From: Lachnospiraceae bacterium
GTDB taxonomy: Bacteria > Bacillota > Clostridia > Lachnospirales > Lachnospiraceae
Length of the DNA: 48,492 bases
NCBI GenBank assembly: GCA_022764445.1
Contig: JALERT010000121.1
Span: 1-48,492 of the forward strand
Direction of reading: 5' to 3'
In this document: positions 15,455 through 44,804 of the stretch, one piece after another
Position numbering within the stretch: the stretch's first letter is position 1
Layout: every line of letters begins with the position of its first letter
Notes under the pieces: model-generated
Seen by the model: the letters and a program-made list of their open reading frames with translations, nothing else
What the model was told of the DNA's origin: nothing
Databases searched by the model: none
Made by a program: the position numbers and the translations under genes

Positions 15455-15486
15455 GTTACTGTACACACCTACGGTGCTACAGTAAC
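15455..15486. repeat. Hairpin GTTACTGTA/TACAGTAAC
   Basis: Perfect 9-bp inverted repeat around CACACCTACGGTGC. Confidence 0.75.
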
Positions 15487-15632
15487 GATTACAGCCCATT
15501 TTAAATGCATCTTAATAGTAGCAGGCACATTTTATACAAGCTTCGCTTGTGTGTGCCTGCGTAGGTCATAAGAAATCTTCCCATCTTCGATGGGTCCCTT
15601 CTTATGACAAATTGCTGCATGGGGCTGTAATC
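15487..15632. other. Multi-branched structured intergenic element (two internal hairpins closed by an 11-bp stem)
   Basis: GATTACAGCCC (15487-15497)/GGGCTGTAATC (15622-15632); internal GCAGGCACA..ACAAGCTTCGCTTGT..TGTGCCTGC (15521-15560) and GTCATAAGAA..CCCATCTTCGATGGG..TTCTTATGAC (15565-15608). Confidence 0.75.
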
Positions 15633-15657
15633 TGGCAAAATTTCATTATCGGCGCAT

Positions 15658-15680
15658 AGCTTGACAGAAAGTGTCAAGCT
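15658..15680. repeat. Hairpin AGCTTGACA/TGTCAAGCT
   Basis: Perfect 9-bp inverted repeat, 5-nt loop, at the junction with the repeat A fragment. Confidence 0.7.
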
Positions 15681-35942: not shown

Positions 35943-35957
35943 TTGTTACAGTTCACA
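35943..35957. repeat. Isolated terminal motif (TGTTACAGTTCACAC) of the dispersed foldback repeat
   Basis: TTGTTACAGTTCACACCC between convergent genes, no second terminus seen. Confidence 0.6.
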
Positions 35958-35969
35958 CCCAACAATTTA

Positions 35970-37888: not shown

Positions 37889-38106
37889 TGTTACAGTTCA
37901 CACTATATCAGTACCACATAATATTCAAGCTTGCTTGTTATATTATGTAGTGCTGATATAGTGGAATAGCCTAACATTTCCTTAATGAATAAAACACAAG
38001 CTGCAAAGCAGCGACTGACAGCAGTCGATAACTATACTACTTTTTAAATATAAAAACTGCTGGCAGGTTTTATGAATGTAGTGAATGTTAGGTGTGAACT
38101 GTAATA
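37889..38106. repeat. Full copy (B) of the dispersed foldback repeat
   Basis: Termini TGTTACAGTTCACAC / GTGTGAACTGTAATA; hairpin ACTATATCAG..CAAGCTTGCTTG..CTGATATAGT; stem CCTAACATT../AATGTTAGG; ATAAAAC/GTTTTAT; GCTGCAAAGCAGC; CTGACAGCAGT/ACTGCTGGCAG. Confidence 0.88.
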
Positions 38107-43420: not shown

Positions 43421-43436
43421 TGTTTCACGTGAAACC
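43421..43436. promoter_or_regulatory. parS: parS site (15/16 match)
   Basis: TGTTTCACGTGAAACC versus consensus TGTTTCACGTGAAACA. Confidence 0.92.
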
Positions 43437-43569: not shown

Positions 43570-43585
43570 TGTTTCACGTGAAACA
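43570..43585. promoter_or_regulatory. parS: parS site (perfect)
   Basis: TGTTTCACGTGAAACA within the extended palindrome GATGTTTCACGTGAAACATC. Confidence 0.96.
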
Positions 43586-43611: not shown

Positions 43612-43659
43612 TGTTACAATTCACACTGTATCAGTAAATGTTAGGTGCAAACTGTAAAT
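43612..43659. repeat. Internally deleted copy (D0) of the dispersed foldback repeat
   Basis: TTGTTACAATTCACACTGTATCAGTA joined directly to AATGTTAGGTGCAAACTGTAA. Confidence 0.8.
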
Positions 43660-43747: not shown

Positions 43748-43937
43748 TGTTACAGTTCACACTATATTAGTAAATATAATATTCAAGCTTGCTTGTTATA
43801 TTATATTTTACTAATATATTGGAATAGCCTAACATTTTCTTCATGAATAAAACATAAGCTGCGAAGCAGCGACTGACAATATTGCAAATATTGGCAGGTT
43901 TTATGAATGTAGGAAATGTTAGGTGTGAACTGTAACA
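43748..43937. repeat. Full copy (D) of the dispersed foldback repeat
   Basis: Termini TGTTACAGTTCACAC / GTGTGAACTGTAACA; CCTAACATTTTCTTCA/TGTAGGAAATGTTAGG; CTGACAATATT/AATATTGGCAG. Confidence 0.9.
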
Positions 43938-44089
43938 ACAGTTCAGCCGTATAAATAGCCTTTCATTCACGTAATGAATAAAACAAGAGCTGCAACGCAG
44001 TGACTGAAAGCAGTTCATAACTAGAGTATTTTTTTATTATAACACTGCTGTCAGGTTTTATGAAGGTCGTGAATGGAAGGCTGAACTGT
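43938..44089. repeat. Diverged copy (E) of the dispersed foldback repeat, abutting copy D and the rsmG stop codon
   Basis: Termini ACAGTTCAGCC/GGCTGAACTGT; GCCTTTCATTCACG/CGTGAATGGAAGGC; conserved TAATGAATAAAACA and CAGGTTTTATGAAGGT; CTGAAAGCAGT/ACTGCTGTCAG. Confidence 0.88.
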
Positions 44090-44090
44090 A

Positions 44091-44804
44091 TCACAGTGGT
44101 TCTTTTTTAGGTTTTCCTGCTTGTCTTGGATATTTTTTTGATAATGTTCCTTTTTTATCAAATTTCACAAAACTTCTGGACATATCTGTTCCATTTAAAG
44201 TAAAAGATATTTTTTTATCAATTATACATGAAAGTTTAGTCTGAGCAGATTTTGAAGCATCAAGTTCTTCATCAACATTACCTGATTTATATGATATAAA
44301 ACTTCCACCGACTTTTACAAAAGGAATACAATATTCCAAAAGTGTAGATAAGTTTGCAACAGCTCTTGAAACACATATGTCAAATTTTTCACGATATTCT
44401 ATATTTCTTCCCAAGTCTTCTGCTCTGCTGTGAATTGTAGTAACATTATTGAGGTCACACAATTTAATAACCTCATTAAGAAAGTTAATTCTTTTATTAA
44501 GAGAATCCATAAGTGTAAATTCTGTATTTTGTAAAATAATAGCTAATGGTATTCCTGGAAATCCTGCACCTGTTCCTACATCAATTATTTTTTTATTATT
44601 TAATTCAAAATAATTAATCAAAGATATACTATCTACGAAATGTTTAGTAACTACATCATTTACTTCTGTTATTGCAGTCAGATTCATTACTTTATTTTTT
44701 TCAATCAATATTTCATAATATTTTTGGAATTTATCGAGCTGGTTATCATTTAGATTTATCCCAATTTCTGATGCAGCATTTTTTAAAATTTCTTTCACAA
44801 TCAT
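44091..44804 (-). CDS. rsmG: 16S rRNA (guanine(527)-N7)-methyltransferase
   Basis: [64 protein letters not shown]. Confidence 0.95.

Follow-up and report, generated by a model that had tools for sequence, protein, structure and literature searches.

The window analysed here, a 48,492-nt contig from the draft genome of a Lachnospiraceae bacterium, contains an intergenic foldback repeat, and the question it raises is whether this repeat represents a structured RNA family or a MITE-like palindrome, the two readings offered by an earlier note on this DNA. Both turned out to be supported together, the mobile element by 8-bp duplications and end repeats and the structured interior by compensatory base changes, the RNA product being putative. 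We consider it quite probable that the repeat as a whole is a non-autonomous MITE mobilised by an IS66-type transposase and equipped with a separately selected multi-stem interior.

Anatomy of the repeat and its copies in the window

All stems described for the reference copy B are present in the sequence at the places assigned to them, i.e. the inverted ends, the closing stem and the hairpins, including a side hairpin with a CAAGCTTGCTTG apex, the ATGAATAAAAC/GTTTTATGAA helix and the hairpins GCTGC-AAA-GCAGC and CTGaCAGC/GCTGgCAG. The site had been given as 37889-38106 (218 bp), which is right as to its place, but the mobile unit comprises 37890-38105 (216 bp; Table 1). A 224-nt stretch with copy B folds at -85.3 kcal/mol compared to -44.9 kcal/mol (SD 4.4) for shuffled sequences, a stability reached by none of 200 shuffles (z = -9.2). 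The ordered architecture recurs at copies D and E, as claimed, with the core model scores listed in Table 1. For copy E, previously placed at 43938-44089, the order is common with B, but the side hairpin is lost, the left end is merged with D and the extent is about 43937-44092. The supposed fragments at 15675, 35943, 40168 and 43612 are all repeat-derived, with positions and kinds to be corrected to a partial copy, a lone end, a decayed end and a 46-bp derivative, respectively. Likewise, no ORF explains the foldback: the only ORF of at least 80 amino acids across any copy, 43767-44018 on the minus strand, crosses from D into E and is apparently fortuitous.

Table 1. Copies and derivatives of the repeat in the window and the parts of copy B
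Feature	Position	Strand	Basis
Copy B, complete element of 216 bp: ends (P1), side hairpin (P2), long stem (P3), two further hairpins (P4, P5)	37890..38105	+	sequence; fold z -9.2; core model 95.0 bits
Left terminal inverted repeat GTTACAGTTCACAC; P1 is its first 11 bases	37890..37903	+	sequence
Right terminal inverted repeat, ATTACAGTTCACAC on minus strand, one mismatch	38092..38105	-	sequence
P2 long side hairpin, GCTTGC apex	37901..37963	+	self-complementary stretch; fold
P3 left arm CCTAACATTTCCTTAATGAATAAAAC, including GA of tandem-GA motif	37970..37995	+	core alignment
P3 right arm GTTTTATGAATGTAGTGAATGTTAGG	38067..38092	+	core alignment
P4 hairpin GCTGC-AAA-GCAGC	38000..38012	+	sequence; compensatory change
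P5 hairpin CTGACAGC...GCTGGCAG	38015..38066	+	compensatory change
Copy D, full element, 188 bp, P5 shorter than in B	43749..43936	+	sequence; BLASTN; core model 102.6 bits
Copy E, with ends of the second subfamily (CAGCC); P2 lost by deletion; left end and right end of D merged	43937..44092	+	sequence; core model 76.2 bits
46-bp derivative, both ends kept, no interior	43613..43658	+	sequence; ends
Partial copy: right part of P2, P3 left arm, P4	15674..15761	+	93% identity over query 37-124
Lone left end GTTACAGTTCACAC	35945..35958	+	end search
Decayed left end and part of P2	40167..40224	+	end search

The repeat is abundant in its own genome, a 2.40-Mb draft of 88% completeness, in which a BLASTN search with the 218-bp query gave 61 matches (E ≤ 0.1). 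The 15-base end occurs there 88 times in near-exact form, compared to one match of a reversed-pattern control. Two end subfamilies, TGTTACAGTTCACAC and TGTAACAGTTCAGCC, occur there together, the right ends being compensated in each. Within the window, two parS-like sites, TGTTTCACGTGAAACC (43421-43436) and TGTTTCACGTGAAACA (43570-43585), adjoin parA/parB and rsmG-mnmG-mnmE, so that copies D and E presumably lie in the origin region. A second dispersed repeat family is represented at 15470-15675 (50 matches in the own genome); since its modules 1-44 and 147-206 are joined elsewhere without the middle, the latter looks like a nested insertion. Regarding orientation, copies between co-directional genes in this genome and in that of Butyribacter intestini, a member of the same genus, have the folding strand antisense in 24 and sense in 9 cases (p = 0.014), and the gene to the left of the element's plus strand is directed away from it in 39 of 52 cases, both counts resting on genes called by simple ORF length.

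Terminal repeats, target duplications and a probable IS66-type transposase partner

That the foldback repeat is mobile, and of the familiar MITE type, is well supported. The elements usually measure 182-216 bp, carry no transposase gene and end in GTTACAGTTCAC / GTAACAGTTCAGCC. In B. intestini, which harbours many copies, direct repeats matching at 7 or more of 8 bases flank 39 of 45 elements (24 of them exactly) compared to 0.35% in a mismatched-flank control, and exact flanking repeats are restricted to a length of 8 bp. Perfect 8-bp repeats also flank elements of other genera or species (loci L063, L147, L154 and L207). In the own genome, such repeats are kept at 7 or more of 8 bases by 5 of 28 elements, suggesting that the copies there are older on average. 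Around the window copies no clear target duplication is found, the flanking 8-mers matching at four positions for copy B and at three or two for the others, an absence for which age or merging is the sole explanation offered. Shorter derivatives (49, 85 and 88 bp), again with 8/8 duplications, consist of ends without any interior; their interior may have disappeared once they were inserted, or they may be able to move without one.

Several arrangements depart from this pattern. Locus L088 (33-287) and other copies of 253-255 bp in B. intestini constitute a longer variant with an additional hairpin-rich insert in P3; the L088 variant is still flanked by an 8/8 target duplication (ACTCACCG). Two loci of genome G335 (L137 and L157) contain the core inside other outer inverted repeats (CCACCTGTGCGG), those of L137 being flanked by an 8/8 repeat (AAATTTTT); this suggests a second set of ends. 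In genome G151, the P3-P5 core occurs as a tandem pair with no recognisable ends (L141, 1380-1592). Phage and plasmid records gave no match to the element, and a search of the open-access literature found no report of such MITEs in Lachnospiraceae.

IS66-family ends begin with GTAA, and members of this family generate 8-bp duplications (PMC11946415). The terminal repeats of the element begin with GTAA or a close sequence (GTTACAGTTCACAC / GTAACAGTTCAGCC and variants), and its ends and 8-bp duplications therefore fit the IS66 family. Corresponding ends accompany transposase genes in other genomes: in G006, an IS66-type single-ORF transposase gene lies between GTAACAGTTCAGTC and GGCTGAACTGTTAC (L082), a copy with no visible target duplication of its own, and in G056, GTAACAGTTCAGCC is located upstream of a fragment of a transposase gene with 83% identity, cut off by the end of the contig (L223). 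An IS66-type element of 1615 bp in G004 possesses variant ends GTTACTATTCAG and a 7/8 duplication (L084). The IS66-type transposase protein matches PF03050 (E = 2e-20), and transposase P0001 scores 148 bits against NF033517, below the NCBIfam IS66 equivalog cut-off of 180, and hence belongs to a divergent IS66 branch. We take the single-ORF layout of these transposases to resemble that of ISBst12.

From these ends and duplications, an IS66-type transposase is the likely mobilising partner. This DDE enzyme would act in trans on the inverted ends and insert the element between 8-bp target duplications. The enzyme class responsible is deduced, with no such transposase now in the draft of the own genome or in B. 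intestini: the former, at 88% completeness, yielded no PF03050 match, and neither contained a close homologue of the matching transposase. Transposase fragments occur in just 2 of 18 other carrier genomes; a family-wide search at E ≤ 1e-60 gave no match, this cut-off being too strict to be informative. The IS66 elements of B. intestini itself were considered as partner and rejected, as their ends do not match and one merely adjoins a copy. Since the core model finds nothing inside the IS66 elements examined, its sole match among these loci being the neighbouring copy in L088, the interior is not a remnant of these elements.

A conserved fold and the level at which selection seems to act

A model of the core (R1) located it in at least 22 of 397 Lachnospiraceae genomes, one genome per genus; the searches scored 10 candidates per genome, so that such counts are lower bounds. 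In a class-wide sample searched in the same way, matches were confined to the same family. Opposite-strand matches, an effect of the palindrome, were excluded. Among 15 core sequences, two-sided changes affect 14 of the 36 pairs, which none of 500 shuffles reached. With 31 representatives, of which a few weak ones (e.g. L148, L150 and L151) may be no true members, two-sided compensated changes are apparent at 34 of 36 core pairs; covariation, the lack of which had been named as an argument against a selected structure, is thus present. In this alignment 90.3% of cells are paired compared to 67% in shuffles, a value inflated because the alignment was fitted to the model. The exchanges in P5 are plain by eye across genomes (CTGACAGC/GCTGGCAG, GACATC/GATGTC and GCACGAC/GTCGTGC), and the GCTTGC apex of P2 (in most representatives) and the P4 hairpin recur, as does the tandem GA of P3 (TGAR...GCGAA). 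Selection on the multi-stem fold of the interior is well supported.

The fold is also strand-specific. Of the 31 representatives, 26 have the better fold on the plus strand (sign test p = 2e-4, with modest power), and G-T exceeds A-C in the paired columns of their alignment (23 vs 12). Private mutations within genomes strike stems about as often as loops (0.0079 vs 0.0106 per cell; p = 0.15, with limited power), and their G-T and A-C mispairs are alike (14 vs 15). Because stems and loops thus mutate at similar rates, the simplest reading places selection at the level of the propagating lineage and not of each inserted copy.

Alternative explanations and known repeat families

The palindromic form common among MITEs, together with the ends-only derivatives of 49, 85 and 88 bp, according to which the interior may be dispensable for movement, would suit an ordinary MITE in which palindromic ends produce the foldback as a passive side effect and the interior is unselected. 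This is strongly disfavoured and in our estimation very improbable, as P3 to P5 are separate stems within the ends and vary on both sides at 34 of 36 pairs across the 31 representatives, as pairing exceeds that of shuffles (90.3% vs 67%) and as the loops are conserved and one strand is preferred. The same deep compensatory change, the conserved apex and GA features, the better folding of one strand (26/31) and the orientation bias relative to neighbouring genes speak for a host-functional structured RNA, either a trans-acting sRNA or a cis-regulator, that is spread by transposition and kept for the host in every copy. Such a host RNA is nevertheless unlikely given the similar rates of private mutation in stems and loops, the equal numbers of G-T and A-C mispairs, the many copies that are truncated or down to their ends and the lack of any fixed neighbour gene among those seen. 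Movement as single-stranded DNA by a Y1 transposase or an integrase, as for REP/attC-like elements, would accommodate the strand-specific fold and the palindromic interior, but is contradicted by clean 8-bp duplications and true terminal inverted repeats, from which we infer DDE-type integration, and by ends common to IS66-type elements; we regard it as extremely improbable.

The earlier note had recognised no known riboswitch or ribozyme in the repeat, and in an Rfam scan the window copies match no family; miRNA-type matches at the window or related loci are chance hairpins. The nearest Rfam family is Clostridiales-1 RNA (RF01699), listed in the original paper as probably RNA and not cis-regulatory (PMC2864571). 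Four related elements match it below the gathering cut-off of 48 (L143, 39.9 bits; L153, 42.1, the best; L154, 39.0; L169, 34.9), which would be compatible with a divergent member, as both have a hairpin capped by GCUUGC that precedes a UGAG/CGAA helix. We deem membership rather unlikely, however, since the window copy in L001 gave no RF01699 match at E ≤ 5, every related match falls short of the cut-off, R1 did not detect the Clostridiales-1 loci, and ends and duplication length differ. Clostridiales-1 occurs in 83 of 150 genomes of the family, often with at least 17 copies, the limit of the scoring, and its loci L226-L255 (e.g. L226 from about 1501) are dispersed and bear TGATRCCAGGGTCAAAAGG-type inverted ends. 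Since 9 of 22 loci, compared to 8 of 462 controls, have exact 5-bp duplications, this RNA also looks mobile.

In the preferred reading, an IS66-mobilised MITE, the interior is a module of its own whose multi-stem fold is selected, and the folded strand, probably RNA and possibly single-stranded DNA, would aid the multiplication of the element or its being tolerated. Selection would work on the propagating lineage while individual copies gather stem mutations. A bolder version, possible but doubtful in our view, regards the interior as a self-propagating structured RNA (or single-stranded DNA) module that has combined with ends belonging to different transposase classes: in the present family these are of IS66 type and give 8-bp duplications, whereas Clostridiales-1 has ends with duplications of 5 bp; its fold would be actively advantageous, e.g. 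by aiding transposition or by protection from, or recruitment of, a host factor. MITEs are usually viewed as inert deletion derivatives kept by their ends alone. Here, one intricate strand-specific fold is held across many genera while copies decay, which suggests that the fold works for the spread of the element itself. If Clostridiales-1, a probable RNA in Rfam, is a mobile repeat, as suggested, part of the catalogue of orphan structured RNAs may consist of mobile elements with structured interiors.

REP, ERIC, Correia and RUP repeats are likewise dispersed, intergenic and foldback; for these we know of no report of a compensated multi-branched interior across genera. With the single-ORF (ISBst12-like) branch of the IS66 family and its derived MITEs, the element shares GTAA/GTTA ends and 8-bp target duplications, its ends being identical over 12-14 bases to those of the transposase genes in G006 and G056. 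It differs in that its ends are not GTAAGCG, in its conserved multi-stem interior, which none of the examined IS66 elements was found to contain, and in a related transposase below the IS66 equivalog cut-off. Clostridiales-1 differs from the element by its TGATRCCAGGGTCAAAAGG-type ends, by duplications of 5 instead of 8 bp, by having no P4/P5 pair and by a third hairpin (gGAUuGc...gCaAUCc) that is absent from the elements and skipped or replaced by other stems in the sub-threshold alignments. Both nevertheless have inverted ends, high copy numbers in Lachnospiraceae and, in the same order, a long GCUUGC-capped hairpin followed by a UGAG/CGAA helix.
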